Positions 1 to 25,127 of a stretch of DNA of 25,127 bases are shown in pieces. The notes under the pieces were generated by a model. The model saw nothing but the letters and a program-made list of their open reading frames with translations. It searched no databases and was not told the origin of the DNA. This DNA comes from a virus: positions 1 through 25,127 of IMG/VR virus record IMGVR_UViG_3300047667_000901. One strand, 5' to 3'. How positions within the stretch are numbered: the stretch's first letter is position 1; each line of letters opens with the position of its first letter. The translations under genes were made by a program, and so were the position numbers.

Positions 1-728
1 GCTACCCCGTCTATACTTATAGCGTCAAAATCGCCTTCCACTACAATTATTATATTTCTGTCAGGTTTTTGCCTATCAAGATTGAATACATAGTGTGGTG
101 GCTTTGACAACAGATATTTGGGTGTTTTGCTATTTGGCGGGTCGCCAATGTATCGTGCACTATGCCCTACAATTTTATCATTGTAGCGATAGGGTAATAT
201 CATTCGATTTCGGTATTTAATATCACCAGCCGTAAACGCCCAATCTGTCCAATGCAATAATTGCCTGTCATGCAGCATACTCACTCCTTTTTCAAAGTTT
301 TTATGTATTGCTGAAGGGTCAATATCCAACATTAACTTGGTGTGATTGGGCAGTGTAACTTCTGGCCAGTCTGGACTGAATGGTGGTTTTATTTCAGGTA
401 AAGGATTTAGTAGCTGGGCAGTCTCCTCTTCACGCATCAATCCAATATTAATACGTTGCATGTCGCTATTAGATACACCAAATTCACCCAGCAATAAACG
501 CACCCCTGCGCTCATGCGGTGGCCTTTGCTCCATCCTGTTTTTAATTTGCAGTTAAAGCAATGATATACCCATTCATTTTCTCCAAATTGGAATCCACCT
601 CTGCGCTTTTTATCAGCGCGGGGCTGTCCTATGCGAACACAAGCTGGGCAATTGCCTGTCAACCATCCACCACTGGCTGGACGCCATCCTGGAAGTAGTT
701 CACGAACATAATTGATAAAAAGGTGCAT
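1..728 (-). CDS. DNA primase, zinc-ribbon plus TOPRIM, partial (runs off left edge)
   Basis: The reading frame opens with ATG at 728 and stays open to base 1, giving 242 residues of an incomplete protein. A four-cysteine zinc ribbon is visible (C27, C30, C57, C60), typical of the N-terminal template-recognition domain of DnaG and phage primases. Near the truncated end, residues 229-238 read VVEGDFDAIS, the glutamate-containing first motif of a TOPRIM catalytic fold. A basic region (about 160-210) lies between. The expected role is RNA primer synthesis at the phage fork with a gp41-type helicase. It follows the 764-1225 gene on the same strand after 35 bases. No convincing ribosome-binding site precedes the start. 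T4 gp61-like function is inferred; the DnaG-type domain order is directly visible. Confidence 0.85.
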   Translation of the reverse strand, partial: MHLFINYVRELLPGWRPASGGWLTGNCPACVRIGQPRADKKRRGGFQFGENEWVYHCFNCKLKTGWSKGHRMSAGVRLLLGEFGVSNSDMQRINIGLMREEETAQLLNPLPEIKPPFSPDWPEVTLPNHTKLMLDIDPSAIHKNFEKGVSMLHDRQLLHWTDWAFTAGDIKYRNRMILPYRYNDKIVGHSARYIGDPPNSKTPKYLLSKPPHYVFNLDRQKPDRNIIIVVEGDFDAISIDGV

Positions 729-763
729 ATGAATATTATATTACATATTAGAGTGAAAGTCTA

Positions 764-1204
764 TCAGATGTTTAGAGAAATCGTTGTATTATCAATAACT
801 TCAAGTATAAATCGTGGTAGACTGCGGCCTGTTTTTGCAAGTAATATGCGGCCTTGGTCATCTGTATACTCTATTACAAGACTGTACAGACCAGCGCTCA
901 GCGCGCCTGTCGCTGCGCTATTCATTATTAGTGTAGCCGTGCCCTCCACTAATACGTCTGCAATCATCGGCCCGTTCCAAACCTCTACATTCTCTGTATT
1001 ATAGATCCGTGCTGTAACTGTGCGGCCAGCAATAAAACATGGCTGTTGGTTATAGTTACGGAATGCAAAATAAACAACAGCATCCCACCCCTTTGCAACC
1101 TGTATAGGGTTAGGGTTATCGCTAGAGACCCGATATGTACCAGCCCGACGATCATTGGTAGGGCTTGCAACGTGTGGGGTATGATAAACGTATATAACTG
1201 TCAT
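764..1204 (-). CDS. Hypothetical protein, possible Ig-like/baseplate-type virion protein
   Basis: An open frame of 146 aa from ATG 1204; an alternative non-ATG start at 1225 would add 7 residues. I chose 1204 because a late-promoter-like octamer, GATAAATA, lies at 1210-1217 and ends five bases before that ATG. The sequence is rich in beta-branched residues and alternating hydrophobics, with text such as WDAVVYFAFRN, RTVTARIYN and LYSLVIEYTDDQGRILL. This is the look of a beta-sandwich domain as in upper-baseplate or neck proteins of tailed phages. No catalytic motif is visible. It is divergent from the plus-strand gene at 1254. A structural role is inference from composition and the late-type promoter. 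Confidence 0.6.
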   Translation of the reverse strand: MTVIYVYHTPHVASPTNDRRAGTYRVSSDNPNPIQVAKGWDAVVYFAFRNYNQQPCFIAGRTVTARIYNTENVEVWNGPMIADVLVEGTATLIMNSAATGALSAGLYSLVIEYTDDQGRILLAKTGRSLPRFILEVIDNTTISLNI

Positions 1205-1217: not shown

Positions 1218-1240
1218 CAATTCAATCAAGATTTGTTATG

Positions 1241-1248
1241 TATAAATA
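1241..1248 (+). promoter_or_regulatory. Late-type promoter octamer TATAAATA
   Basis: Exact match on the plus strand to the T4 late-promoter consensus. It ends five bases before the ATG at 1254, and no Shine-Dalgarno sequence lies between. It is the only promoter-like element directly ahead of the only plus-strand gene. An exact 8-mer is expected by chance about once in a window this size, so the support is its position and its partner at 1210-1217. Confidence 0.55.
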
Positions 1249-1253
1249 GATGC

Positions 1254-1634
1254 ATGGATGATAATAAAAAATTAGAAGAATTACTTGAACAATTCCCCTT
1301 CCTTACCGTAGCAACTTATGGAAAAAACGAATACCTTGGTATTATTCAAAATCAAGACGGAAACTTAATTAGTATGTACGTTCTTGAAGAAATAAAAACA
1401 CTAGAACTACGAACGCTATTCCTTGAATATGGGGCAGAGTGGTGGTGGGAAACAAATCGAATGATTCCAATCAATATTATATTGGGCCAACGGTTCAAGG
1501 TATTTAGAAATGCATTGCGTACATTTAATATAAAAGACTTTGAAATTAAATATGGACCCAGTGTATGTCTTAAAGACATCATGCAGAAACGAGTTAAGCG
1601 CAAAAATGTTCAATTAATCAAGAAGATATCATAG
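1254..1634 (+). CDS. Conserved T4-like phage hypothetical protein
   Basis: A 126-aa frame from ATG 1254 (MDDNKKLEELLEQFPFLTV...); a TTG at 1233 in the same frame would put the promoter box inside the gene, so it is rejected. The central signature has a WWW cluster followed by NRMIPINIIL, which I recall from small conserved proteins of marine T4-like phages, but I cannot name a function. The tail is basic (QKRVKRKNVQLIKK). It is the only plus-strand gene in the window and its last 17 bases overlap, tail to tail, the end of the oxygenase gene at 1618-2313. Expression is probably late, judging from the TATAAATA box. Confidence 0.75.
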   Translation: MDDNKKLEELLEQFPFLTVATYGKNEYLGIIQNQDGNLISMYVLEEIKTLELRTLFLEYGAEWWWETNRMIPINIILGQRFKVFRNALRTFNIKDFEIKYGPSVCLKDIMQKRVKRKNVQLIKKIS

Positions 1635-2313
1635 CTTCATAAGCCATTACATCTGCAACCACATCCTCATTCAGATAGTTTAGCATTAACATATAGCGAC
1701 TACTAAGTCCGTTATTTGGCATTTGTGAATGTAATACCCGTGTATCCCATATGACAACATCCCCGTATTTAAGTCTGGGCTGAGTAAATTTTGATAGAAA
1801 TTCTGATGTATAATCGCCACGGTAACATTTTTTGATATCCCAATATTTGTTTTGACTGCCTGATAAGAATGCTGTTGTACCACTATCAATAGCAAAATTA
1901 TGCAATGGTGCAGCCACTTGAATACCCAGTAGCCGTGAATCGTTATTCCAGGGCAGATGTCTGTGTGGAGTGTCAACATGGGGCCGTACCAACTTACAGC
2001 CTGTGGCAAGTACGCTAACAGATGATTGATAAAATATTGGACGATCTATAAGTTTGGCTACTATTGGGTCAATTGCTTGCCTGATAGCGGCCAAACCTAT
2101 ATTATCATTTAATGATGTAGTCCAGTAATTTGCCCATTGCACATTGGGTTGGAATTTATTATAGTATTTTCCATCTATATCATGGCCATGACTGGGATAA
2201 TCATAATCATTTTTAAAATATGCCAGTTCATATAACACCAATGGGTCAATCACATTCTTATAGGATACGAATCCATCCTCGACAAAGCATTTATAATGTG
2301 TTCTATTATCCAA
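1618..2313 (-). CDS. 2-oxoglutarate/Fe(II)-dependent dioxygenase, PhyH-like
   Basis: 231 aa. The non-haem iron triad is visible: H112-x-D114 in RPHVDTPH and distal H195 in TRVLHSQMPN, followed by R206, the usual 2-oxoglutarate carboxylate ligand. The spacing and a conserved KYGDVVIWDTRVLHS block fit the phytanoyl-CoA dioxygenase branch of the double-stranded beta-helix superfamily. Members hydroxylate small molecules, lipids or modified nucleobases; the phage substrate is unknown. The start appears to be TTG at 2313, because the upstream gene ends at 2306 and no ATG fits the N-terminus; AGAAG lies six bases upstream as a weak ribosome-binding site. It is translationally coupled to the DnaE-like gene by an 8-base overlap and converges with the plus-strand gene. 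Confidence 0.8.
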   Translation of the reverse strand: MDNRTHYKCFVEDGFVSYKNVIDPLVLYELAYFKNDYDYPSHGHDIDGKYYNKFQPNVQWANYWTTSLNDNIGLAAIRQAIDPIVAKLIDRPIFYQSSVSVLATGCKLVRPHVDTPHRHLPWNNDSRLLGIQVAAPLHNFAIDSGTTAFLSGSQNKYWDIKKCYRGDYTSEFLSKFTQPRLKYGDVVIWDTRVLHSQMPNNGLSSRYMLMLNYLNEDVVADVMAYEAMISS

Positions 2314-2872
2314 CGAGTTCTTCTATAATTAAATTCATGTGCAATTTAACTGCCAATGCATACGACACTGCATGACTTTTCTTAAAGGCATACCCTTCTT
2401 CAGTCTTGGACCAAACGTGCTGATTGACATAGTTCCAGTTCCTGCCAACTAAATTTCTCTTTGCTGGTCGGATCATAGCTAACACTGCGGCAAGCTGCAT
2501 CAAATCTTTGGGTTTCATTTTCTTACAAATGTCACTATGTCCACGCATGTGAAATACCATGTCACAGAATTCTTCTTCTTCAAGCAACTCCCATACTGGC
2601 TCACGATCAAGCAAGGCAAGCTGATGCTGTTCGTCACGTATTCCTTTGTATATGGATACATTAAGTACATCGATTTTAAAATACCCCAATGCCTCAGCCT
2701 CAGCATAGTCAATACTGCAACGACCGGTGAAAGGATTAACTGGGACTTCATGAAAATACACCCCTGTATTATGCTTTACCTTGCCATTATTCGCTACTAC
2801 ATGAGTGAACAATTCCAATACGCGATCTCGATCTGGAACGTCTATGTCAATATCAGTTACTGTTGGTTTCAT
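2306..2872 (-). CDS. Miniature stand-alone DnaE-like (DNA polymerase III alpha) protein
   Basis: 188 aa. The text aligns by eye, in order, to the catalytic core of bacterial DNA polymerase III alpha. Residues 6-12 TDIDIDV match the PDxDxDF palm motif; 64-69 YFKIDV match the KFDFLG motif; about 93-135 (WELL, FHMRGHSDICKKMKPKDL, then AAVLAMIRP) match the block around FQLESRGMKDLIKRL and ALFRPGP; 160-172 GYAFKKSHAVSYA match GYGFNKSHSAAYA. The three catalytic aspartates (E. coli D401, D403, D555) correspond to D7, D9 and D68, all retained. The PHP, thumb, beta-binding and tau-binding regions of the roughly 1,160-aa parent are absent, and the core is compressed. Activity is unknown; it could be a minimal nucleotidyl transferase or a regulatory derivative. 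It sits between two small genes with overlapping starts. Confidence 0.7.
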   Translation of the reverse strand: MKPTVTDIDIDVPDRDRVLELFTHVVANNGKVKHNTGVYFHEVPVNPFTGRCSIDYAEAEALGYFKIDVLNVSIYKGIRDEQHQLALLDREPVWELLEEEEFCDMVFHMRGHSDICKKMKPKDLMQLAAVLAMIRPAKRNLVGRNWNYVNQHVWSKTEEGYAFKKSHAVSYALAVKLHMNLIIEELVG

Positions 2873-7283: not shown

Positions 7284-8846
7284 TCATTTTTTATTTCCTC
7301 TTCCCCCAAATAGCTTAGCTTTGGCAGGAAGATCCTGCCGCCAATTAATTTTATGTACAATAAAGTCATATTGTGCTTTTTTATAGTATTTCTTCCTCTC
7401 AGTGAGATGGCGCTTGCTAAATTTGGCACTTGACGTAATGTCATATATATTAACAAAGTCCTTGTCATTAGCTGTACGCAGGCCTCTACCAATACTTTGG
7501 ATAACACGGATGAAACTTTTACCAGGTTCCACTAGTACCATATTAAAGATCCTGGGAATATTAATTCCCACCGCTGCTACACCATATGTGGCAACGATGA
7601 TCTTATTGTCCTCCTTGGCAATCTCTTTATAGTGGTCGCGCCGTTCCGCATTCTTCATTTTGCCGCTGACAAATACTGTGCGGTCAGCAGGTAGTCGTTC
7701 CACCAAGCCCATGCCTGCTTTTACACGATCAACTAATACAAGTGTGTTGCCCTCATCTGCAATCTTAAGAATCATCGCTGCCATATAATCCAGGCGATCT
7801 GAATCTGTAGTGAGGTACGATAATTCTGACTGATAGTTGTCGTAAAATACATCATCTTGCATTTGTATAACGTCAATGTGACAGTTACTCAGCACACCAT
7901 CATCTTGCAATGTTTTTGCTGCCAAGTCACCCACCACTGGTCCCAGCCCCACAGTGAGTCCTATTGCAGCATGTTCTTCAGGTGGAATTGTTCCTGTCAA
8001 TCCCCATCTAATTGGAATGTTACGGAACGGTCCCACTAGCATTTTCAGCAAGACGTCAGCCTTTGCACCATGTGCTTCGTCCACAATAACTGCCATAACT
8101 CCTGCTGTAAAGTCCTCAAGGGACATGCTACTCTTACCTTCGCGGAAGTTTTTTTGTATAATTTCCAGACTCTGCCATGTGCAAATAGTGTGCATCTTTC
8201 CGTAATCCTTACGGTCACCAAAATACACGCCAACATCTAATCCTAGATTGACATAATCTTCTTCAGTTTGTGTTACCAAGCCTTTGTTGGGGACAATAAC
8301 AATTGTCCTGCCGCCGTCATACCCTGTTGCTAGTTTGTGCATCGTTAGCTGCTCACTAGTCAATCCCCGTTCCACCAGGTCGCTCAGGGCCGCTGTGATA
8401 AGCGTTTTACCTGCACCTGTTGCAACTTCCTGGCAACTTTTTTGATGGACCAAAAAATTATTGATAAGTTCAACCTGGTAATCGCGCAGTATTACTGGCT
8501 TACCTGCGGCGACATGGTCTACAGGCCATACACGATCTTTAAAGTGATCTGTTGTAATTGTGGCCATATCCATATTAAACGACTGGCGCTTGTCATCTAA
8601 AGTGATGTCATATCCTTCTTCAATAAGGATAGGCAGCATTTCTTCAAGTAAATTCAGATATGTTTTACCGCCGATTGCGAAGAAATTCTTTTTACCATCC
8701 CATCGTCCCATTTTGAAGGATGGGGTATAGTACGCAGAAGGTATCATAAACGCAAATTTATCATAAAGCTTCCGTCGAGTTGACGTTTCTAGTCCATGTA
8801 ATTTTGCATTGACCTCGTCTAATAGTTCAATTTTAGCTTGTTTCAT
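7284..8846 (-). CDS. uvsW: UvsW ATP-dependent DNA helicase (superfamily 2)
   Basis: 520 aa. Superfamily 2 motifs are clear: Q-like RDYQ near 121-124, Walker A ATGAGKT at 142-148, DEAH at 256-259, motif III LTGT at 283-286, motif V around VATYGVAAVGINIPR and motif VI QSIGRGLR at 450-457. The N-terminal domain with FKMGRWDG is typical of T4 UvsW, which unwinds branched DNA and R-loops and helps switch from origin- to recombination-dependent replication. Length matches the family (about 500 aa). A strong sigma-70 promoter lies 85 bases upstream. The ribosome-binding site is weak. In T4, uvsW is late; a sigma-70-type promoter here suggests earlier expression. Confidence 0.93.
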   Translation of the reverse strand: MKQAKIELLDEVNAKLHGLETSTRRKLYDKFAFMIPSAYYTPSFKMGRWDGKKNFFAIGGKTYLNLLEEMLPILIEEGYDITLDDKRQSFNMDMATITTDHFKDRVWPVDHVAAGKPVILRDYQVELINNFLVHQKSCQEVATGAGKTLITAALSDLVERGLTSEQLTMHKLATGYDGGRTIVIVPNKGLVTQTEEDYVNLGLDVGVYFGDRKDYGKMHTICTWQSLEIIQKNFREGKSSMSLEDFTAGVMAVIVDEAHGAKADVLLKMLVGPFRNIPIRWGLTGTIPPEEHAAIGLTVGLGPVVGDLAAKTLQDDGVLSNCHIDVIQMQDDVFYDNYQSELSYLTTDSDRLDYMAAMILKIADEGNTLVLVDRVKAGMGLVERLPADRTVFVSGKMKNAERRDHYKEIAKEDNKIIVATYGVAAVGINIPRIFNMVLVEPGKSFIRVIQSIGRGLRTANDKDFVNIYDITSSAKFSKRHLTERKKYYKKAQYDFIVHKINWRQDLPAKAKLFGGRGNKK

Positions 8847-9697: not shown

Positions 9698-10077
9698 GTT
9701 AGATCCTTATGGGCCGCTTCTAGCCACTCATCATAATCCCAGTCATCACTTAATGTATTGCAGATGAAATCAACAGTGGTCTCTGCGGACATCCTGTCTT
9801 TGCCGCGCCACAGTGTATCGTCAATCGGGCCTGTGCAAATATCTTCTCTAACACTCATCAAAGCTGCCTCAAGTTTAGCAACACGCTCTCGTTGTTGCCC
9901 TGCATCTTCTTCAAAGGCCAGCCCTATTTCGCTGGAAGTCACAAGTTGCGCCTCAAGATCCACGAGGAGATTAATTCCCTCTACAAGAAAATCAACATAA
10001 AATTGATTATGCGGTTCTTTGATCATACTGGCGGCGGTTCGTAGTGCGTTGGTTCGTAGTGCGTATATATCTGTCAT
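9694..10077 (-). CDS. Hypothetical phage protein, 127 aa
   Basis: Helical protein with a coiled-coil-like middle (FEEDAGQQRERVAKLEAAL) and an acidic tail (SDDWDYDEWLEAAHKD). It resembles numerous short early proteins of phages of Gram-negative bacteria, without known function. The ATGA start overlaps the stop of the upstream gene. The repeated coding text ALRTNALRTAA at residues 6-16 is a short internal duplication (about 15 bases repeated near 10030-10060). Confidence 0.55.
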   Translation of the reverse strand: MTDIYALRTNALRTAASMIKEPHNQFYVDFLVEGINLLVDLEAQLVTSSEIGLAFEEDAGQQRERVAKLEAALMSVREDICTGPIDDTLWRGKDRMSAETTVDFICNTLSDDWDYDEWLEAAHKDLT

Positions 10078-10373
10078 GTTGGTTCCTTTAGGGCTGCTCT
10101 GGCTATTTCACCAGCGTCACTTAATATAGGGAAAACGTTCGTCGGTTCTGAACAACAATCGTTGTCATAATCATAATTGCTTTCCACTGCGTATACCTCT
10201 AAAGCCGCCCGCAGCTTATCACGTTCGGCCTCGAGTCCAATAATGTCAGTCACAAGATCATTGAACTCGTCATCATGCAGGTATTTGGTACCGCTTGAGT
10301 TTGATCTATTAGGATCTTCCCAGCCTTCATCAGGACATGGTTGAAGATACAAGTATGGTGGCGGTTCTCTCAC
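10074..10373 (-). CDS. Hypothetical phage protein, 99 aa, GTG start
   Basis: Starts at GTG 10373, within GTGA overlapping the stop of the upstream gene. The N-terminal third is Pro/Tyr-rich (PPPYLYLQPCPDEGW); the rest contains a helix (DIIGLEAERDKLRAALEVYA) and a helical end (AGEIARAALKE) of a style common in small phage early proteins. No function recognised. Confidence 0.55.
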   Translation of the reverse strand: MREPPPYLYLQPCPDEGWEDPNRSNSSGTKYLHDDEFNDLVTDIIGLEAERDKLRAALEVYAVESNYDYDNDCCSEPTNVFPILSDAGEIARAALKEPT

Positions 10374-10630
10374 GATTCAGTCTCTTTCCCTGTTATTGCA
10401 ATCAAACGCATTTCAGCTTCATGGAATTTATTTCCTGACCCGTCTTTAAAGGTTTTGGCGTGCAGTCTTGCTGCGGCCCAATCGGAAATAGCGGTCTGAA
10501 TTTTAGAAATTGTTGCTTGCTGGGTTTCAATCATGTCAGCACCTTCATGGCAGGCTTGACGTGATACAATGCACATGACCCCGTCTTCGTCACACTGCTC
10601 GCCGTTTCGAAGCGCTTCAATTATAGTCAT
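10370..10630 (-). CDS. Hypothetical protein, 86 aa
   Basis: Mostly helical: IEALRNGEQCDEDGVMC, then ACHEGADMIETQQATISKIQ and HEAEMRLIAITGK. Its start overlaps the stop of the upstream gene by ATGA. No family recognised; part of the overlapping early-gene run. Confidence 0.5.
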   Translation of the reverse strand: MTIIEALRNGEQCDEDGVMCIVSRQACHEGADMIETQQATISKIQTAISDWAAARLHAKTFKDGSGNKFHEAEMRLIAITGKETES

Positions 10631-14131: not shown

Positions 14132-14590
14132 TTATAAGCTAACATCATCGAGTCCCGCTGCTTTGAGTTTTACAATATGTCCAATCTGATATTGTTTTGC
14201 ATCCAGACCCTTCATCAATGCCAAATATTTGTTACGAACTAATGCAAATTCGTTAATTAAATGTTCCATGTCAATATAGTCTTGGTCGCCCTCAGCAAAC
14301 TTATCAGCATCACGACTGCTGAGGACCTTATTATAATGTTCAAGATATTTGCGATACTTGGCGCGATGGATACGGCGAAGCTCGATGTTGAGATATTCCA
14401 GGATTGCGTCAACTTCCTGAAGCTGACCAAATCGATATGCGACAAAGCCTGGAATATCCCTACTACTGCTTTCAAGGTTACCACGTAAAGACGTTTCAAT
14501 ACGGGCAGAATCTAATTCCTTTTCAAAGTAACTAATGGCGTCGATAATGTTTGACACATCAGCCTTTACTTTGTTATACCATCCTGCCAT
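14132..14590 (-). CDS. uvsY: UvsY-like recombination mediator
   Basis: 152 aa, almost wholly helical and charged. The block ELRRIHRAKYRKYLEHYNKV, then LSSRDADKF and LINEFALVRNKYLALMKGLD, followed by QIGHIVKLKAAG, matches how I recall UvsY proteins of T4-like phages (T4 UvsY is 137 aa). UvsY loads UvsX onto gp32-covered single strands and binds DNA through basic helices, which this protein has. Its position two genes after uvsX and three after gp32 supports the call. The ribosome-binding site is weak. Low sequence conservation within the family keeps confidence moderate. Confidence 0.62.
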   Translation of the reverse strand: MAGWYNKVKADVSNIIDAISYFEKELDSARIETSLRGNLESSSRDIPGFVAYRFGQLQEVDAILEYLNIELRRIHRAKYRKYLEHYNKVLSSRDADKFAEGDQDYIDMEHLINEFALVRNKYLALMKGLDAKQYQIGHIVKLKAAGLDDVSL

Positions 14591-14629: not shown

Positions 14630-14884
14630 TTATTCATCCCAATCATCATGTTCATTATCATCATTTAAGCCATTATTGGCAATAAAATCACGTAGTGCTT
14701 TATCAAATATATCACAAATCCCATACAGATCATGAACTGGTACGCTGAAGTCTACCAGCCCTGCTTCATCAATTTTAGCTATAAATTGATCTGCACAACT
14801 TCTTTGATCTTTAGCTGGAACATAGTTTTTAATACCTGCCCAAAGTTCAACAAGGGCAGGTGTGTCGGTTGCGTGTAATGTCAT
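14630..14884 (-). CDS. Conserved hypothetical protein between uvsX and uvsY
   Basis: 84 aa. PALVELWAGIKNYVPAKDQR and FIAKIDEAGLVDFSVPVHDL are followed by YGICDIFDKAL and an acidic tail (NDDNEHDDWDE). I remember similar short proteins beside uvsX in other T4-like phages, function unknown. The ATGA start overlaps the uvsX stop, so it is coupled to uvsX. The acidic C-terminus is reminiscent of partners of DNA-binding proteins, but this is only suggestive. Confidence 0.65.
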   Translation of the reverse strand: MTLHATDTPALVELWAGIKNYVPAKDQRSCADQFIAKIDEAGLVDFSVPVHDLYGICDIFDKALRDFIANNGLNDDNEHDDWDE

Positions 14885-16008
14885 TTAGAGTCACCGTCTG
14901 ATAGTTCAGTATCATCATTAGAGGTGTCAACATTAGAGGTATCAACATTATTATCTTCTGCAACGTTTGGCATATGCATGTCAAACTGTGCCATAATAAC
15001 ATCTAAATAACCATTGTCGTTACGCTCCCATGCTTTGCGGAACATTTTGTATATTTCGCCAGTCTCTTTGTCGATGTACTCTAAGCTATTTCCGCTTTTT
15101 GTCAATACAACATGTCCTTCAAAAAAGTCAACAAGTCCTGAATATGGATTCATACCAGTCTCATATGGAATCTTAATTTGTACAGATTCAAAAGGTTTGG
15201 CGTAACGTGATTTGACCACTTTACATGCTGCACGGATACCATGCACCTGTGAAGTTTTGTTGCCGTCTTCATCTTCTTTAAGTTTAAGCTTTTTAATTGC
15301 CACCACAATTGAACTGGCAAACACCATTCCTTGTCCGCCAGAAATCTTATCGTCTGGATCAAACATATCTTGACTTTGGTATGTGTGGTTTGTTGCTACA
15401 AGGCCAATATTCAAATCGCCAAACATATTAACACAGTTGGTTACAAGTGCCTTAAGCTGTCGTGGTTTGCGGCCCATGTCGCCCTTCATTTCTCCTGCTT
15501 CAAACTGCTTGAGATCAGTTGGGCTCATAAGCATACCCAAAGAGTCAACTACAAATAGCACTTCAGGACGGTCATCTGGAGCAGCATCGCCATAACCTGC
15601 ACGATATTCAGTTACAAAGTCACTGATAACTTTGGCAACATCGTCAATCATTGCCATGTTTAATTTTAGCAATTTGTCGTCAGCTGTATTCACGCCCAGG
15701 GCATGTAGCCACTTTTCGTCCAACGCATTTTCACTGTCAATCAATATAACAAAGATACCCAAGTCTTGGGCAGCTTTAACCAAGTTACCAGAGCAAATAA
15801 AGCTCTTTCCAGATCCTGATTCACCAGCAAACATTGTTACTTTGCCAAGTGGAACACCTTTGTGGAAGTCTCCTGATATTAGTCTGTTGAGTGTATAGTT
15901 TCCAGTTGAGATCCATGTTTTTGGGTCACGGAATCCAACTGATAGGCCTTTTACACTCTTGGTAATGCCTTTTCTAAATTTAGCTACATCGAATGTGCGT
16001 ATTCCCAT
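14881..16008 (-). CDS. uvsX: UvsX RecA-like recombinase
   Basis: 375 aa, close to the T4 UvsX length. Walker A GESGSGKS at 62-69, the DSENALDE block at 91-98, Walker B VLFVVDSLGM with D155, and the L2-side SGGQGM block of RecA-like strand-exchange proteins are all visible. The C-terminal tail is acidic and contains a tandem VDTSN repeat. It catalyses homologous pairing for recombination-dependent replication with gp32 and UvsY, both nearby. GGAG lies eight bases upstream of ATG. An 18-codon frame ends on the start codon (TAATG). A strong hairpin separates it from gp32. Confidence 0.95.
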   Translation of the reverse strand: MGIRTFDVAKFRKGITKSVKGLSVGFRDPKTWISTGNYTLNRLISGDFHKGVPLGKVTMFAGESGSGKSFICSGNLVKAAQDLGIFVILIDSENALDEKWLHALGVNTADDKLLKLNMAMIDDVAKVISDFVTEYRAGYGDAAPDDRPEVLFVVDSLGMLMSPTDLKQFEAGEMKGDMGRKPRQLKALVTNCVNMFGDLNIGLVATNHTYQSQDMFDPDDKISGGQGMVFASSIVVAIKKLKLKEDEDGNKTSQVHGIRAACKVVKSRYAKPFESVQIKIPYETGMNPYSGLVDFFEGHVVLTKSGNSLEYIDKETGEIYKMFRKAWERNDNGYLDVIMAQFDMHMPNVAEDNNVDTSNVDTSNDDTELSDGDSK

Positions 16009-16128: not shown

Positions 16129-17142
16129 TTAGCCGTCTTTTCGTGCACGGATAGCAGCGAGGATATCCTTTGCATCCTTAGGGCCTGATGCAGGTGTAGA
16201 CACTGTGGATACAGTTTCATCTTTATCCTGATCCTGATCCTGATCTGTTGGTGAGGATTCAGGTGCACTGCTAACACTTGATGTCTTTGCAGGTTGTGCA
16301 GTAGGCGTCGTAGCATGTGACGCGCGGTTGCTGGCCCCACTGGTTGGAGATTCAAAGCCATAAGGACGGTAAAAGTCTGCAAAACGTTCTGGATCATACA
16401 ATTCACCATCTACGCTGGATTCAAACATGTTAAAAATAACCTGTAGTTCTTCCTGGTTTGGCATCTTAGGCATGGATTCGTTGAGATCAAAGTGACCATG
16501 CTCAGCAATTCCATCACGTTCTGCCTGATCCAAACTGCGGGATTTACGCGCCCAGCTTGAAGTGCTATAGTCTGCGTACTGACCTTTCTTGGTCTTTGTA
16601 ACACGGAAGTCAACACCCATATCATATTCAGTCGGCATGTGATCACCAAAGTCAGGATCCATAAGAGCAGACTTAATAACATTGTGAATTTGTGTACTGA
16701 TGATGAAGCGGCGCACAATATTTTCTGGTGCTTCTTCCTCAGTAAATGCAGAGTGAACTACTGTACCTTGATACAGGTAGCTTTTCTTTTTCCAGTATTT
16801 GCGGGCCATATCTTCCATGCTTGGATCTTTGAACCAAGGACGGATTTCTTGATGGATTGGGCATTTCTGACCATCCCACATTTCAACACATGGCACCTTA
16901 ACAGTGACAGGCTTACCCTCATCATGGCCTTTGATGCCACTGAATTGGATGTTGATCATCTGGCGCTCACGCCAGAAGAAATCGTTAGTCGTATCACCAT
17001 CTGAGATGAATCGAATTGTGGATGTCTCGTTTTCGGGGGTGTTCCAGTGTGGGTAAATTGCGTTGTCGTATCCGCCTTTTTTACCGTTTTGCTTCGATTC
17101 TTGCTGTTGAAGCTTCGCTCTGATTTCTGCTAATGATGTCAT
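16129..17142 (-). CDS. 32: gp32-like single-stranded DNA-binding protein
   Basis: 337 aa (T4 gp32 is 301). The N-terminus is a basic/polar helix (LAEIRAKLQQQESKQNGKKG). The core has aromatic OB-fold text (STIRFISDGDTTNDFFWRER) and a zinc site H73, C85, C94, H97 spaced like the T4 gp32 site H64, C77, C87, C90, with histidine in place of the last cysteine. The tail is Ser/Thr/Pro-rich and acidic with a DQDQDQDKDE run, as expected for the partner-binding C-terminus, ending in AKDILAAIRARK. It covers single strands at forks and recombination intermediates. Upstream are a sigma-70 promoter, a late-type box and two leader hairpins; in T4 gp32 represses its own translation through such a leader. Confidence 0.92.
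   Translation of the reverse strand: MTSLAEIRAKLQQQESKQNGKKGGYDNAIYPHWNTPENETSTIRFISDGDTTNDFFWRERQMINIQFSGIKGHDEGKPVTVKVPCVEMWDGQKCPIHQEIRPWFKDPSMEDMARKYWKKKSYLYQGTVVHSAFTEEEAPENIVRRFIISTQIHNVIKSALMDPDFGDHMPTEYDMGVDFRVTKTKKGQYADYSTSSWARKSRSLDQAERDGIAEHGHFDLNESMPKMPNQEELQVIFNMFESSVDGELYDPERFADFYRPYGFESPTSGASNRASHATTPTAQPAKTSSVSSAPESSPTDQDQDQDKDETVSTVSTPASGPKDAKDILAAIRARKDG
16225..16245. repeat. Six-base tandem repeat in gp32 acidic tail
   Basis: ATCCTG repeated three times plus a partial copy, encoding alternating Asp-Gln. Slippage in this tract would change the length of the acidic tail in multiples of two residues without altering the frame. Confidence 0.8.
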
Positions 17143-17396: not shown

Positions 17397-20300
17397 TCAT
17401 ACTCCAAATATTTTCCGTATATCATACTTGCTGAATGTTTCGTTAACCCGAGAAATTTCCTGCTCCTCAATGTCAATTTTTTTATGTCCAACGTCGTTGG
17501 CTTCAGCAACTGTTCCTTGCTGCTTAACCACATTGATAGCAGACATAGCCATATGAACGTGTTGGTTGCTAACAGCCGACAGGTTTTCTTCCAGCTGCGC
17601 TAATGAGTTTGATAGTGCTTCATTCTGTACTTTTGGTGCCAGATATGCCGCCCATGCCACAACTTCGGATATTTGATCTTTATATGCTTGTGCCCCTGGA
17701 CCGTCGGGATCATCATCATCACATGATTCTGACAACGCAAAGCCTGACGTACTGTTCATAACCTGGCGGGCAAATTCCACAATGTGTGATTCACTAGCCT
17801 GTCGCTTGCGCATTGATTCAATAACACGAGCTACATATGGAAGACTTGCGGCAATATCTTCGTCAAAGTATGACATGGTTGTTGCATCTTTTAACTCATC
17901 AATGCGCTCTTGTGAAATATCAGCACTTTCTTTGTTAAAGCCTTCCATTTGGGTATTATAACCGCGTGGGGTAGACATGCTCTTTAAGCTAGAGCGTAGG
18001 TTAACAATATGCGCGCCTATTTCTTCACCAATTGCCGCGTCCTCAAAGAAGTCATTGCGCTTGTTTTTACGGTGGAATATTTTAAGCTCGTTGAGCTCCT
18101 CCATGATACCGTAAATATGCTGCCCAAAGTCATCAAACGGCGCGCCACCTTCTTGTACGTGTCGTGCCATCGCCTTTGCTGCGGTGATATTTGAGCTAGG
18201 AAACTTAAAGCGTTCGCCTTCTGCGTTCTCAATAAAGATACTTTCAATCTGACGTGTGCGGGCGCCGCGCTTTTCTTCGTCTACACTACGTTTGTGCTTG
18301 ACAATGATGCGAGCGCTTTCTAGTTGATTTACACTTTTACGGGCAGATCCTGCCCAGCCGCTGAAACCTTCGTTTACGTCTTCATTCATACGATCTCTTA
18401 ACCAGTCGTTATACTCTATTCGTGCCTTTTCTTTTTCTTGTTTATTTTTTGGGAGTGGACCAGCTGGACCTCTTTGCGACCTGCCAATTGCCCGGTCGTC
18501 ACCATATTTGTCGGCGACTGAATTCTTCCAGTCTCGACTTTTCCCGCTGCGCATCGCTGATGGATCTCCTGTCGATGCGTAATTGCGTTCTTTTTGCCCG
18601 CCTGCTTTGAATGCAGCGTCAAACTCAGCGCCCGCAGATCCCTTTTTCTTGGTCTTACCAAGCATCCGTGCTGCTCTCTTCTGTGATGATGACTGCCAAT
18701 TTGGATTGCCACCATAATCTTTTTCTAGTTTTCTTATTCCACTAGGTGAAGGTGGTAAAGAATAATCCCCAGCGCCGGGGCGGCCGAAACCTGTAGTAGC
18801 ATCGGTAGTAGATGTTATAGCACCTTGCTTCATGGCTTTTTGCTTTGCAGTCAATTCATTAATCTGTGCTTCTTTCAATGACCTTGTATTTAAGCCACCA
18901 TCAAATTTGCCGCTGAAACCTTCATGTACGGCCCAGGAGATTTTGCCATTTCTCAAGGTGCCCTCTTTACCATCACGATTCATATTATCGTCTACACTAA
19001 AGAGTGGCATTCCCCCTGGGGCAATACCATTGCTAGTAGCAAGGTCTTCTATTGCTTTTACCAATGACCCGCCCATACCCAGGTAGTCATCAGCGGTGGC
19101 AACTGGATCGTCATTTATGAATAACTTCAGCATATAAAAGTCTTCACTGTAATCGTAAAATACTTCCATTGCAGCGCTGCTTTCGTTTACGCCTTCGTTC
19201 CGTAGTTTCTTATCAACCATTGATAATCCAAACTTCCGTTTACGTCTGTCGCGCAGTGCAGCACGGCGATCTGGATGAAGTCTATCCATATGCCCATGTC
19301 GTTCAAGGTCACGTATAGTGTCATTTGCGTCAGTCTTCGCTAACTTGGCTTTCCTTTTATATGAATTCATTGTGGCAGTTGAAAGTTCATCAATCTGTGC
19401 TTCTTTCAATGACCCTGTATTTGAGCCACCATCAAATTTACCTCTGATATTGCCATTCTTATCTTTAGCTGTTTTATAACTAGTCATTTCACCAGATGGG
19501 TGTACTGCATTTTTCACAGTATATCCCATTGTTCTTGCTTGAGTAGCCCATGTGTTTTCATTGCTGAATGAGAGCCCAACGCCTTCATTCATATCATTGC
19601 GCTTAAATCCAGCTGCTTCATAACCTGGCCAAGTTGCTCCTGGATTAGATGCTTTCCACTTATTTTTAAAATTACGCTGTACAATGTATTCACGATCAGA
19701 TTGTTCTACATCAGCAGCTCTGGCCGATGGTGACATTCCTGTTTTTGTTTCTTTTACGTCTGGTCGGCGATTTGCCATATCAAGGCCGCGGTCTCTTTTT
19801 GCTACTGTCTTTTCTTTTTCACGGGCATTGCGTTTTAGTGCATTTGATTTTTTTCTATACTTTTTGCCATATCCATACGGATCTGGTCCCACTGGATCGT
19901 TTGCAAACTGTCTATATTTCTCTGCGCCTCCGCGGTCATATTCTGCGCCGTCTTTAGCTTTGTTGCGTTCTTTGGTGGCTTTGTCTCTGTAAGAGTTAAC
20001 AGTGTCAGCTGAAATTTCATCAATCTGGTTAATTTCGTTCATTGCATCATTATATGGTGAACTGCTTGGTGTTTTTTTATTCATAGTATTGCCCTTGTTT
20101 GCGTCGTCTAAACTTTCTGGAACACAGTTGTTTACGCGCTTGTTTATATTCTTACCTGTACCTTGCTTGGTGCCTTGCTTTTTATAGCCATCCCAGCAAT
20201 TAATTTCATTTATTTCTTCGTCGCTGTCCATGTGATCATTGTATGCCTTTGATGTCGCGGCCAAAATCTTTGCGTGGTGTGCAACATTTCTGAAGTTGCC

Positions 20301-20783
20301 ATCCAGTGCTGCTTTTGCAATATTCTTTGCGCGGTCGATCATGTTCTTTTGCAAGGATCGCTCATTCCAGCTACCGAAGCCAGGCACACTTATTTCGGCT
20401 TGGTCTTCTACTTGATTATGGCGTGTCATGTTTGATTCTCCAATTGTTTTGGCTTGGTATGCAAAGTCTTTTGGTTGTATTGATTTACCAAATGTCTTTA
20501 CTGTAAATTCAATAATGTGACGGCTTGCAATATTGCGAATTGCAGAAAGCATTGGTTGTACAGATTTGATGTCAGTGCCCTTGGATAGGTTAACAACAAT
20601 TTCATTTGTCGTTTCATCTACCACAAAGTTAACCATCATTTGAATATCTTTGGCAAAAATTCGACGCGCTTCTGTTGGGTTAGCTGTCTTTTTACCATCA
20701 TCAGTAAATAGAATAATTTTGTGACCATATCCTTTGATAACTTTGAAAAGTTGGTCTGCTATTTGATCTACTGATTCTGTCAT
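17397..20783 (-). CDS. Large mosaic virion-associated protein with shared cassettes (1128 aa)
   Basis: Start ATG 20783 behind AAAGG and a late-type box. Residues 1-115 form an alpha/beta domain (GYGHKIILFTDDGKKTANPT, SIQPKDFAYQAK) and about 820-945 another (SARIIVKHKRSVDEEKRGAR); I associate both with large proteins of marine T4-like phages. Between them lie charged, low-complexity modules: a 92-residue cassette (254-346) also found twice or more in the protein at 22700, and two copies of a GKFDGG-LNT-SLKEAQI module at 448-466 and 625-643. Short Ile/Val/Leu-x-Glu motifs (for example at 191-193, 254-256, 464-466, 641-643, 961-963, 1113-1115) mark module joins and resemble the T4 prohead-protease consensus (Leu/Ile-x-Glu). 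It sits directly after TerL. A capsid-interior or scaffold-associated role is inference; no enzymatic motif is seen. Confidence 0.7.
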   Translation of the reverse strand: MTESVDQIADQLFKVIKGYGHKIILFTDDGKKTANPTEARRIFAKDIQMMVNFVVDETTNEIVVNLSKGTDIKSVQPMLSAIRNIASRHIIEFTVKTFGKSIQPKDFAYQAKTIGESNMTRHNQVEDQAEISVPGFGSWNERSLQKNMIDRAKNIAKAALDGNFRNVAHHAKILAATSKAYNDHMDSDEEINEINCWDGYKKQGTKQGTGKNINKRVNNCVPESLDDANKGNTMNKKTPSSSPYNDAMNEINQIDEISADTVNSYRDKATKERNKAKDGAEYDRGGAEKYRQFANDPVGPDPYGYGKKYRKKSNALKRNAREKEKTVAKRDRGLDMANRRPDVKETKTGMSPSARAADVEQSDREYIVQRNFKNKWKASNPGATWPGYEAAGFKRNDMNEGVGLSFSNENTWATQARTMGYTVKNAVHPSGEMTSYKTAKDKNGNIRGKFDGGSNTGSLKEAQIDELSTATMNSYKRKAKLAKTDANDTIRDLERHGHMDRLHPDRRAALRDRRKRKFGLSMVDKKLRNEGVNESSAAMEVFYDYSEDFYMLKLFINDDPVATADDYLGMGGSLVKAIEDLATSNGIAPGGMPLFSVDDNMNRDGKEGTLRNGKISWAVHEGFSGKFDGGLNTRSLKEAQINELTAKQKAMKQGAITSTTDATTGFGRPGAGDYSLPPSPSGIRKLEKDYGGNPNWQSSSQKRAARMLGKTKKKGSAGAEFDAAFKAGGQKERNYASTGDPSAMRSGKSRDWKNSVADKYGDDRAIGRSQRGPAGPLPKNKQEKEKARIEYNDWLRDRMNEDVNEGFSGWAGSARKSVNQLESARIIVKHKRSVDEEKRGARTRQIESIFIENAEGERFKFPSSNITAAKAMARHVQEGGAPFDDFGQHIYGIMEELNELKIFHRKNKRNDFFEDAAIGEEIGAHIVNLRSSLKSMSTPRGYNTQMEGFNKESADISQERIDELKDATTMSYFDEDIAASLPYVARVIESMRKRQASESHIVEFARQVMNSTSGFALSESCDDDDPDGPGAQAYKDQISEVVAWAAYLAPKVQNEALSNSLAQLEENLSAVSNQHVHMAMSAINVVKQQGTVAEANDVGHKKIDIEEQEISRVNETFSKYDIRKIFGV
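18851..18917. repeat. Cassette C copy 1 (KFDGG module)
   Basis: Encodes GKFDGGLNTRSLKEAQINEL in the 1128-aa protein; about 67 bases almost identical to 19383-19447. Both copies end in the Ile-x-Glu motif. Confidence 0.8.
19383..19447. repeat. Cassette C copy 2 (KFDGG module)
   Basis: Encodes GKFDGGSNTGSLKEAQIDEL. Only a few base differences from copy 1, about 470 bases away, so deletion or duplication by recombination between them is possible. Confidence 0.8.
19751..20026. repeat. Cassette A copy 1 (about 275 bases)
   Basis: Encodes IDEISADTVNSYRDKATKER through DMANRRPDVKE in the 1128-aa protein. Near-identical at the DNA level to copies at 23893-24167 and 24940-25127 in the neighbouring gene, with scattered substitutions only. 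Confidence 0.9.
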
Positions 20784-22415: not shown

Positions 22416-22700
22416 CTACTTCAAACCTGCGAGGCGCTTAACACTTTCAAGTACTGGATCTGCTTGTTCGTATGTGTTATCCAAATGTCGTAATGCGCCT
22501 TCTTCTACACCCTCAAGTGCAGAAAATAAATGGGTAAGTGCTGCGCGTACTTCGCCAAGCGGAGCAGTATCCCCACCGATCTCCATAATATGCCGATCCA
22601 AGAAGCCATCTACCCCATAGGTTTTTTCGATGCGCTCAACGTAGCTCATATCTCTGGATAATACTTTATCAATAGCACGTATTGAATGTTGTTCTGACAT
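22416..22700 (-). CDS. Small protein upstream of terL, possible small terminase by position
   Basis: 94 aa, helical and acidic (RAIDKVLSRDMSYVERIEKT, LGEVRAALTHLFSALEGVEE, then PVLESVKRLAGLK). In T4 the small terminase gp16 is immediately upstream of gp17, and small terminases are helical oligomers with a coiled-coil core, so position and composition fit. The usual length is 160 or more residues and no helix-turn-helix is obvious, so this may be unrelated. The TAATG start overlaps the stop of the upstream mosaic gene. Confidence 0.4.
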   Translation of the reverse strand: MSEQHSIRAIDKVLSRDMSYVERIEKTYGVDGFLDRHIMEIGGDTAPLGEVRAALTHLFSALEGVEEGALRHLDNTYEQADPVLESVKRLAGLK

Positions 22701-25127
22701 TATGCTTTTCCTCTGGATCTTTTAAATTTATTGTATGATTCAGTTAAGCTTTTGGCAGTTATATTATTTTCAGCAACAGTAACTTTTCCTGGGGTAGCAT
22801 TAATATATCGGCGCAGGCTTAAATCAACGGTTTCGCCTTCTGGCTGGGACATAACATGACCTTTATCGTCATATTGTTGATAAACACTGTTTGCCCATTC
22901 ACGCATTTGCTGAGACTCATTCTTTACCATGCTATCATATCCTGCCAACCATGCATCTAAGTATGGGCGTTGATCAAATGAATCTGCGCCACGCATGCCG
23001 TCTTTGTTCATTAAGTGCATTAGACGTGGGTCAGATGTAGGTGCACGTTTATGGTCCTTATGAGCAGACTTACCTAAGCTTTTTGCATCAGTAATGCCCT
23101 CACTGAGTTCAGTCTCGTCCTTGTCATCTGCCCAATCAGGTATACCATCACCATCAGCGTCTGGCTTTTTTGCTTCATTGACAGCTCTAAAGTTGTACTT
23201 GTCATAGAGAATGTCCAAAACGTCATCAATAAATTCTCTGTCAGTCGCAAGTATTTTTTGATCATCGGATGAACTCAGAATTCGTTTAATAGCTGTAATC
23301 TGATTATACCGGTGTGCATCAGGGTTAAGTTTGGCCGCTACTTTTTTAGCAATATTGTCTTGGGTCATCATTGCTTTGCCTGCTTCGTCAATTTCTTTGT
23401 CCCATGGTGCTTTTTTGACGGACACTTTTTTCTTGGGTGCGTTATTGAGACCAGCAAGGGCAGACATGCGGGCAATTTCGCTATCTTCGTCTGATGCTTC
23501 GTTGAATTCTTCTGATTCGGCAACGCCTCTTGTTGAATTGTTACACTTGGGGCAGAAATCGTTGTTCTTCTGCCATGCTTTGGCAGTTGATACTTCATCA
23601 CATTCCAAGCAAGCAATCTTGGCAACAGCTTCTGCCAATGAGGATTCTGGAATCTCTACAACTTGGCCGCCATGTTGATCCAAAAATTCAATTGCATCAG
23701 TGTTATCAATTGAAACAGCAATATGGAATTCTGAAAGTCCATAATCTTCAGGAGCAGGTCCTTGGCGACTATTACCAGGGACTGGATCATGACCTAATAG
23801 GTCATCTAATTCATCAAATAACGCATAATCATCAGGCAGTGACATAATGTCATACCAAATGTAAGCTTGGCTATTATCTGCTTCTGCAATTTCTTTTACG
23901 TCTGGTCGGCGATTTGCCATATCAAGGCCGCGGTCTCTTTTTGCTACTGTCTTTTCTTTTTCACGGGCGGCGCGTTTCAGCGCATTTGATTTTTTTCTAT
24001 ACTTATTGCCATATCCATATGGATCTGGTCCGACTGGATCTTTTGCAAACTGCCTATATTTCTCTGCGCCTTCGCGGTCATATTCTGCGCCGTCTTTAGC
24101 TTTGTTGCGTTCTTTGGCGGCCCTGTCTCTGTAAGAGTTAACAGTGTCAGCTGATATTTCATCAATTTTGTGTGTTGAATCTTCTGCAATTTCTTTGTCC
24201 CAGGGTGCCTTTTTAACTGACACTTTTTTCTTAGATCCGCGGTCTGCGTTGGCCAGAGCCCTGTGCTGCGACTGTTCATCTTCGTCCGAAGCTTCATAAA
24301 GGTGTGCTTCATCGCCGCCGCAATATTGACCGCTTGCCTCCATGTCGCTACAAAAGTCTTTCATTACGATGGAAATATCACTTGCACTAATTTCAGAACC
24401 TAGGTCAGAATTCCTATCAGCAACCCAGTGTGCAATTTCTTCTACTTCTGGGCTTGCGTTCCGATATTCGTTTGGGGTAATAATGCGATGCTGTAGAGCC
24501 ATACGCAATATATCGTAACCGTCTATGCGATCATCGCTATCTTCTGCAATTTCTTTGTCCCAGGGTGCACGTTTAACTGACACTTTTTTCTTAGGAGCAG
24601 TATCAAGTCCAGCAAGGGCGGACATGCGGGCAATTTCGCTATCTTCGTCTGAAGATTCCATTGTATCGTCTTGTCGCTGCTGCATTTTGTAATCACCGTA
24701 TTCGTCCATGGCGGACATGAGGTCGTCATTTATTTCTTGTTCAAAACGATATTGATCAGCACTGGAAATTTCAACTTCATTTCCATTAGCATCCTCAGCA
24801 TGTAGATAAATTTCGCCGCCGAAGTTAACATCTGGTTCTGCCATCGCAACATCATAATAAACCGTTACTGGAACATCACCAGCTTCTGGAGTATCAATAT
24901 AGCTTTCGATTGATCCAGTTGGTGCGCTCTGGTTAGTTTCGTTTACGTCTGGTCGGCGATTTGCCATATCAAGGCCGCGGTCTCTTTTTGCTACTGTCTT
25001 TTCTTTTTCACGGGCCTTGCGTTTCAGCGCATTTGATTTTTTTCTATACTTATTGCCATATCCATATGGATCTGGTCCCACTGGATCTTTTGCAAACTGC
25101 CTATATTTCTCTGCGCCTTCGCGGTCA
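22700..25127 (-). CDS. Large mosaic protein with cassette repeats, 5' end beyond right edge
   Basis: The frame is open to the right edge; the GTG at 25081 is an internal valine, and coding text continues through DREGAEKYRQFAKDP to the end, so at least 808 residues are present and the true start is outside. It alternates globular stretches with cassettes: A (24940-25127 and 23893-24167) shared with the 1128-aa protein, and B (KKKVSVK-x-APWDKEI, three copies). Between them are an acidic domain with PVTVYYDVAMAEPDVNFGG, a four-cysteine zinc ribbon (about 23538-23616), and a calcium-loop-like DADGDGIPDWADD (about 23128-23166). Glu-ending tripeptides such as IAE, IDE, VNE and VAE recur at joins. 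A virion interior or scaffold role is inferred from neighbours and architecture. Confidence 0.7.
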   Translation of the reverse strand, partial: DREGAEKYRQFAKDPVGPDPYGYGNKYRKKSNALKRKAREKEKTVAKRDRGLDMANRRPDVNETNQSAPTGSIESYIDTPEAGDVPVTVYYDVAMAEPDVNFGGEIYLHAEDANGNEVEISSADQYRFEQEINDDLMSAMDEYGDYKMQQRQDDTMESSDEDSEIARMSALAGLDTAPKKKVSVKRAPWDKEIAEDSDDRIDGYDILRMALQHRIITPNEYRNASPEVEEIAHWVADRNSDLGSEISASDISIVMKDFCSDMEASGQYCGGDEAHLYEASDEDEQSQHRALANADRGSKKKVSVKKAPWDKEIAEDSTHKIDEISADTVNSYRDRAAKERNKAKDGAEYDREGAEKYRQFAKDPVGPDPYGYGNKYRKKSNALKRAAREKEKTVAKRDRGLDMANRRPDVKEIAEADNSQAYIWYDIMSLPDDYALFDELDDLLGHDPVPGNSRQGPAPEDYGLSEFHIAVSIDNTDAIEFLDQHGGQVVEIPESSLAEAVAKIACLECDEVSTAKAWQKNNDFCPKCNNSTRGVAESEEFNEASDEDSEIARMSALAGLNNAPKKKVSVKKAPWDKEIDEAGKAMMTQDNIAKKVAAKLNPDAHRYNQITAIKRILSSSDDQKILATDREFIDDVLDILYDKYNFRAVNEAKKPDADGDGIPDWADDKDETELSEGITDAKSLGKSAHKDHKRAPTSDPRLMHLMNKDGMRGADSFDQRPYLDAWLAGYDSMVKNESQQMREWANSVYQQYDDKGHVMSQPEGETVDLSLRRYINATPGKVTVAENNITAKSLTESYNKFKRSRGKA
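23389..23500. repeat. Cassette B copy 1
   Basis: Encodes EASDEDSEIARMSALAGL, a variable four-residue joint, then KKKVSVKKAPWDKEI. DNA nearly matches 24541-24658. Confidence 0.85.
23893..24167. repeat. Cassette A copy 2
   Basis: Encodes IDEISADTVNSYRDRAAKER through DMANRRPDVKE. About 275 bases; joined directly to cassette B copy 2 through the IAEDSTHK linker. Confidence 0.9.
24181..24297. repeat. Cassette B copy 2
   Basis: Encodes EASDEDEQSQHRALANADRG then KKKVSVKKAPWDKEI. The second half is conserved, the first half has diverged from the other two copies. Confidence 0.8.
24541..24658. repeat. Cassette B copy 3
   Basis: Encodes ESSDEDSEIARMSALAGL then KKKVSVKRAPWDKEI. Closest to copy 1 across its whole length. 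Confidence 0.85.
24940..25127. repeat. Cassette A copy 3, cut by right edge
   Basis: Encodes the second half of cassette A (REGAEKYRQFAKDPVGPDPY through NRRPDVNE). The first half presumably continues beyond the window. Confidence 0.85.

Follow-up and report, generated by a model that had tools for sequence, protein, structure and literature searches.

How a protein of only 188 residues can carry the active-site residues of a C-family DNA polymerase is the question raised by one gene of the IMG/VR virus record IMGVR_UViG_3300047667_000901 (positions 1 to 25,127; this whole stretch of 25,127 nucleotides is called the window below). C-family polymerases are bacterial replicases of roughly 900-1500 residues. 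The gene is an open reading frame (ORF) on the minus strand at 2306-2872, with an ATG start and no internal stops; the plus strand of the same interval has stops in the frame of this ORF. A preliminary description of the window had read the product as a miniature DnaE in which the three polymerase aspartates were kept by selection, and had proposed for it the roles of minimal nucleotidyl transferase, helper to the phage polymerase or decoy of the host replicase. The analysis given here indicates that the protein is likely to be the C-terminal half (C-half) of a much-reduced C-family DNA polymerase core built as a heterodimer, whose N-terminal half (N-half) has in related large phages a gene of its own, distant from that of the C-half.

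The window protein was identified as a member of phrog_11778 ('DNA polymerase') by a full-length match (E=3.3e-59; residues 5-186 on positions 6-195 of a profile of 197), so its resemblance to a polymerase is not due to chance. Homologues were found in 63 isolate-phage records and in at least 598 IMG/VR stretches. The textbook DnaE likeness of the single sequence is faint. The Pfam finger family PF17657 scored 16.8 bits (cut-off 22), TIGR00594 scored 16.3 bits (E=0.0019, cut-off 434), phmmer against the PDB gave E=0.35, and the palm family PF07733 was not matched by the window protein alone in a Pfam search. A profile of homologues (A2, 26 rows) was aligned with Mycobacterium tuberculosis (Mtb) DnaE1 (5lew) at residues 412-425, 567-664 and 774-788, in that order, with a whole-sequence E of 9.6e-4, none of the three stretches being significant by itself. 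The stretches that link the three blocks are ~100 and ~87 residues shorter in the window protein than in Mtb DnaE1. The C-half is a reduced C-family (DnaE) palm and fingers piece, and the palm origin given in the preliminary description stands.

Residue conservation was counted in 73 distinct homologues drawn from 87 hits. Invariant in all 73 were D7, D9, D11, H34, G37, K66, D68, R135, P136, K138, H167 and Y171, a list which bears out the earlier claim of selection on D7, D9 and D68. These three we take to be E. coli D401, D403 and D555, and K33-H34-N-T-G37 presumably resembles the KHAGG strand of DnaE. In the profile alignment with 5lew, the DIDID and K66-x-D68 motifs fall on their counterpart blocks of DnaE, and the PDB phmmer alignment sets S166 and H167 against E. 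coli S759 and H760. According to one paper (PMC3919608), D401, D403 and D555 coordinate magnesium and are absolutely conserved across the C family, while D405 is absolutely conserved in DnaE and specific to it; H760 was proposed as a steric gate against ribonucleotides in another (PMC8485763). The window protein has these C-family hallmarks, namely the three metal aspartates, the DnaE-type extra aspartate (D11) and the steric-gate histidine.

What the chain has lost was described in part correctly. PHP, thumb, (HhH)2 and the clamp-binding motif were not met with in the window protein, which aligns only to E. coli 396-781 (domain boundaries as we take them to be), and a length of 188 residues leaves no space for these domains. 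The fingers, which had been called mostly gone, are partly kept, at E. coli ~591-642 and 751-767 in the PDB phmmer alignment. The GxGRGS segment was not found in the 188-aa chain. The GRGS turn, which lies upstream of D401 and holds the triphosphate, is needed by a C-family site. The missing segment means that the C-half is probably not a self-sufficient polymerase or nucleotidyl transferase.

The segment was found in a different gene. A PF07733 search of the whole genomes of phages Phosso, GAP32 and PA5oct gave exactly one match in each (3/3), confined to profile positions 20-97 and lying in another small gene. The GAP32 copy, GAP32_323 (172 aa), matches phrog_11127 with E=1.1e-87. GxGRGS is invariant in 88/88 N-half sequences. 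The N-half profile covers Mtb DnaE1 336-406 and E. coli 320-392, ending short of D401, and the N-half gene ends 0-2 residues past its EF[LF]x end, which corresponds to the end of the first DnaE palm segment (11/11 aligned). In the rows of profile A2 the C-half starts 0 to ~20 residues before DxDxD. Splitting by an intein was considered and rejected, there being no space for one at either of these ends. No ORF with both profiles was found among 87 C-half and 99 N-half loci. From gene coordinates, the two genes lie 11 to 224 kb apart among phages: ~11 kb in Slicko01, 14-15 kb in RAS14 and XacN1, 33 kb in GAP32, 44 kb in PA5oct, 182 kb in Atu_ph07 and 224 kb in Phosso. PF07733 was not matched anywhere in the 25,127-base window record, and the partner is absent from this fragment. 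Metagenomic relatives number at least several hundred stretches for each half's query.

The two halves are complementary and abut on solved structures. AlphaFold2 models of the window C-half (predicted local distance difference test, pLDDT, 81.7) and of the N-half at locus L108 (pLDDT 90.9) were each aligned to solved structures. On E. coli 2hnh the N-half was placed at 279..395 (Z 10.4) and the C-half at 396..781 (Z 9.2); on Taq 2hpi the ranges were 293..457 (Z 8.0) and 458..838 (Z 8.4), and on Mtb 7pu7 they were 306..415 (Z 11.3) and 416..808 (Z 6.4). In all 11 entries common to both lists, the end of the N-half and the start of the C-half are 0 to 6 positions apart. The sequence profiles on 5lew agree, with the N-half at 336-406 and the C-half from 412. 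Against Pol III alpha entries the C-half model scored Z 6.4-9.2 and the N-half model Z 8.0-13.0. Among the top 12 rows of the C-half model, 11 are Pol III alpha and the other bears just the title 'DNA polymerase with inhibitor', and the next row (Z 2.9) lies outside DNA polymerases; the first 14 rows for the N-half model comprise 13 Pol III alpha or PolC entries and one with a similar title, followed by a row with Z 2.8. The palm fold called for in the preliminary description was recovered by the C-half model, with Z 9.2 on both 2hnh (root-mean-square deviation, rmsd, 4.9 over 183) and 5lew (rmsd 4.4 over 170), subject to the reservations on this model given below. Residues 1 to ~75 of the L108 N-half (9980-10519) are confidently modelled and fall outside all of the C-family structural alignments, in which the model ranges begin at 72-88.

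The two genes occur together in isolate phages. The 60 C-half phage records listed (of 63) are, without exception, exactly the 60 best N-half records (best 60 of 115); these 60 include GenBank/RefSeq duplicates and near-identical phages. Below them, the N-query matches listed have E of 6e-6 or more, and the annotated ones fall under DNA polymerase or DnaE genes. The C-half records outside the 60 are PP728206 (109 kb), OQ508956 and OQ508957, and an N-half was found in OQ508956. This last is Slicko01 (L104, OQ508956.1), a 141-kb Alishewanella phage which is not jumbo-sized; both halves are on one strand, with a gene for a replication factor C small subunit between them. Among IMG/VR contigs collected with the N-half, the C-half was present in 6/11, and in 5/5 of those of at least 259 kb. 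The joint catalytic set was complete in 19/19 two-half records, 18 by script and one by eye; the nineteenth, G031, has S at the D11 column of the script and DLDID in its own sequence, which was taken as an alignment shift.

In a genome collection 13 C-half loci were found, all on contigs of metagenome-assembled genomes (MAGs) or uncultured bins, with ORFs of 187-220 aa and without fusion. The contigs of these loci (L209-L221) were binned as archaeal, Elusimicrobia, Neomarinimicrobiota, Pelagibacter and other MAGs; they are probably mis-binned phage contigs. Both MAG assemblies searched with profile A3 (G030 and G031) hold a small N-half, which in G031 is on contig C1, taken as the contig of C-half locus L220.

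Both halves are under purifying selection. Between GAP32 and its IMG/VR relative G019 the ratio of nonsynonymous to synonymous substitution rates (dN/dS) was 0.021 for the C-half, a sign of strong purifying selection, and 0.069 for the N-half; synonymous sites were saturated in most other pairs. Over the listed pairs more than 66% identical, dN/dS was 0.021-0.11 where dS could be estimated, and the corresponding ratio of proportions of differences (pN/pS) was 0.14-0.27 elsewhere.

The C-half gene is placed in a replication block (Table 1). The gene order in GAP32 is gp32-like, UvsX, DEAD/DEAH helicase, C-half, small convergent gene, primase and primase-helicase. In Phosso it is RecA-like, helicase, C-half, convergent gene, primase and DnaB-like helicase, and PA5oct has the same order with an unnamed gene at the helicase place. 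In the window this block runs from gp32 through UvsX, UvsY and UvsW as far as the C-half, and the sequence stops short of the primase. Judged by position and strand only, a small convergent gene comes immediately after the C-half in GAP32, Phosso, PA5oct and Slicko01, whereas in RAS14 and XacN1 a single gene intervenes. The N-half and the annotated clamp-loader gene (gp44) are separated by only a few genes in GAP32, Atu_ph07, SCTP-2, XacN1, RaK2 and 121Q. A B-family polymerase was present in 3/3 phages tested.

Table 1. Features of the window, with the C-half gene and its motifs first and the neighbouring genes after them.
Feature	Position	Strand	Basis
C-half of split C-family polymerase core (probable), 188 aa	2306..2872	-	phrog_11778 match, homologues
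DxDxD motif D7, D9, D11 (E. coli D401, D403, D405)	2840..2854	-	73/73; register partly presumed
K33-H34-N-T-G37, palm strand	2762..2776	-	H34 and G37 73/73, K33 67/73
K66-x-D68 (E. coli K553, D555; numbering presumed)	2669..2677	-	both 73/73
R135-P136-A-K138, fingers motif	2459..2470	-	R, P and K 73/73; R and P on E. coli ...RPGP (PDB phmmer alignment)
O-helix (model helix 165-187) with steric gate H167 (E. coli H760) and Y171	2312..2380	-	H167 and Y171 73/73
Convergent small gene, phrog_11637	1233..1634	+	E=1.2e-33
UvsW-type helicase	7284..8846	-	profile search
UvsY-like mediator	14132..14590	-	phrog_231, E=1.3e-15
UvsX/RecA-like recombinase	14881..16008	-	PF00154, E=2e-14
gp32-like single-strand binding protein	16129..17142	-	phrog_1192, E=1.8e-63

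Other genes of the window were noted in passing. A PhyH gene (phytanoyl-CoA dioxygenase-like, PF05721; 1618-2313, minus strand) begins where the C-half gene ends, and lies between that gene and the convergent small gene; at this position GAP32, Phosso and PA5oct have no annotated gene. Two minus-strand genes, at 17397-20783 and 22700-25081, encode proteins of 1128 and 793 aa that have a repeated cassette in common (around PDPYGYG..KYRKKSNALKR). The 1128-aa protein matches the virion structural family phrog_13484, the 793-aa protein also repeats KKKVSVK.APWDKEI, and a large terminase gene sits between the two.

The following mechanism is proposed. Two proteins of ~170 and ~190 residues would assemble into one reduced C-family palm with shortened fingers. 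The N-half (phrog_11127 in GAP32) would supply the first palm helices and the triphosphate-binding GxGRGS turn, and the C-half the three metal aspartates, K66 and the shortened fingers with their O-helix and deoxyribose-selecting histidine, so that a single nucleotidyl-transfer site would be rebuilt from both halves and be complete in neither alone. Retention of the steric gate points to deoxynucleoside triphosphate (dNTP) as the probable natural substrate. The pair probably acts at short range in the phage replisome, the 3' end being held by other replisome proteins; with thumb, PHP, HhH and clamp motif gone, short, distributive addition is expected. Most simply, it would extend primers, putting a few dNTPs onto a primer or 3' end that the B-family polymerase then takes over, and this role is the weakest step of the scheme. 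Among the three roles first suggested, helper to the phage polymerase is the most plausible, now as one subunit of two. With less assurance than for the assignment of the two halves, we incline to the fuller view that the pair is a natural two-subunit DNA polymerase, its C-family active site divided between a triphosphate-binding and a metal-binding protein from unlinked genes, with a thumbless and PHP-less core, serving as a dNTP-adding partner of the jumbo-phage B-family replicase. Such a core would, to our knowledge, be the smallest of the C family.

Several observations weigh against this proposal. The structural alignments of the C-half are loose (rmsd 4.0-5.0 on the Pol III alpha rows), Foldseek gave a best E of 0.016 for both halves, and the palm of the lone C-half model is poorly ordered (block pLDDT 49-76 over residues 11-70), the fingers part being confident. 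Templated synthesis is uncertain because thumb and mid-fingers, the usual holders of the DNA duplex, are missing. The halves co-diverge (mirror-tree r=0.91, reached in 0/2000 shuffles), which also follows from common phage ancestry and has no weight as proof of contact. The N-half was detected in 0/18 C-derived IMG/VR contigs of 32-280 kb with profile A1 and in 0/18 with PF07733 alone, and the broader profile A3 gave no match in 9 of the 18, the 280-kb and 222-kb contigs included. The gp44 clamp loader (GAP32 query) was found in 0/7 of the A3-negative C-only contigs and in 4/4 contigs with both halves, within ~2 kb of the N-half; in the remaining 11 C-only contigs (32-56 kb) it was found in 0/11, in a search that lacked a positive control. 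The missing gp44 makes incomplete contigs the likelier cause of the missing N-half, without proving it. Conversely, the C-half was missing from 5/11 N-derived contigs (110-202 kb). The GAP32 primase-helicase query was matched in 6/6 contigs with both halves and was absent from 3 of the 5 N-only contigs; the other two, G022 (110 kb, E=3.7e-65) and G028 (202 kb, E=1.7e-25), reached via L110 and L178, have the helicase and no detected C-half, so a missing block does not account for them. In these two the C-half may be too diverged, lie beyond the contig or be truly absent, and some phages may have an N-half without a C-half. Most of the contigs showing one half look incomplete, and two are not clearly so.

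The main rival accepts the heterodimer and denies it polymerase activity: the pair would be a dNTP- and metal-binding module acting as a sensor or regulator in the replisome, for example of the clamp loader or of the B-family polymerase. Thumb, mid-fingers, HhH and clamp motif are all gone, a B-family polymerase is already present in the three phages, and a clamp-loader gene lies near the N-half, as such a regulator would have it; the three metal aspartates and steric gate, kept in 73/73, are seemingly more than binding requires, and we regard this explanation as possible and rather doubtful. Action of the 188-aa protein by itself, as a minimal nucleotidyl transferase, is very unlikely, and this reading was rejected in view of the GRGS partner present in the three phages searched. 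Every metal-binding aspartate is on the one chain and C-bearing contigs without a detected N-half exist, but GxGRGS is outside the chain, in the second gene that was co-present in 60/60 of the listed records, and in the model of the chain alone the palm is poorly ordered. Known Pol III partners contact PHP, the clamp motif and the C-terminal domain. A decoy or inhibitor mimicking the host replicase, for instance through association with host DnaE or with partners of DnaE, would suit a small protein that descends from a host-type replicase, but those contact regions are gone and both halves keep their catalytic and sugar-selecting residues without variation, which makes this third role very unlikely. 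That the gene is a decaying, functionless remnant of a once complete phage DnaE, as its large deletions might suggest, has almost no probability in view of the dN/dS and pN/pS values, the wide spread and the invariant active site.

Both phrog_11778 and phrog_11127 are 'DNA polymerase' in PHROGs, with full-length matches, and the entries are silent on complementary halves. Two described proteins, CBB_328 of phage vB_PcaM_CBB and gp316 of Atu_ph07, are N-halves; in the accessible text of the respective papers the former is a 172-aa 'truncated' alpha subunit (PMC5259590) and the latter is listed as 'DNA polymerase III alpha subunit' (PMC6102473), and the same portions of these two papers make no mention of the C-half. 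The Phosso record (PV764938) labels both halves 'DnaE-like DNA polymerase III alpha' and some RefSeq records have 'DNA polymerase' for both, while others give the C-half as 'hypothetical protein' or 'putative membrane protein'. None of the record notes met with describes the two genes as halves of one site, and the link was not found in the open literature, within the accessible parts of that literature and mostly outside subscription papers. Homology to the C family is itself clear; among its described members none was found to match the division of the active site and the extent of the reduction. If the proposal is true, a pair of ~170 and ~190 residues would show the smallest working C-family site, assembled from two polypeptides, and a function would be gained for two families that are common in jumbo phages and frequently carry the labels hypothetical, membrane or truncated protein. 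The question would then be why phages with a B-family replicase retain, within their replication blocks, an additional C-family site that is split.

Compared with Pol III alpha (DnaE1 of E. coli 2hnh, Taq 2hpi and Mtb 5lew), the phage core has the same order of palm and fingers blocks and the equivalents of D401, D403, D405, D555 and H760. It differs in being split at E. coli 395/396 into two unlinked genes and in lacking PHP, thumb, mid-fingers, HhH, clamp motif and C-terminal domains, with a total of ~360 aa against 1160 (5fku). Polymerases in two pieces are described for the intein-split cyanobacterial DnaE (PMC3919608) and for the split PolB of phage MIJ3 (PMC6892783). The phage halves are like these in their two-piece coding and unlike them in having no intein space and in lying 11 to 224 kb apart. 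Weak N-half matches at L054-L056 were examined as candidates and proved to be a separate, compact phage DnaE of ~548 aa (L056:15651-17291 and L054:10740-12383; L055:15648-16865 is cut by the contig end). In these three it lies ~5 kb from a C-half gene, some phages thus carrying both. The compact DnaE resembles the split core in being a reduced C-family core with no PHP match (the L056 copy has PF07733 at 12-231 and the finger at 244-367), and differs from it in being one chain, in which PF07733 is matched nearly end to end.

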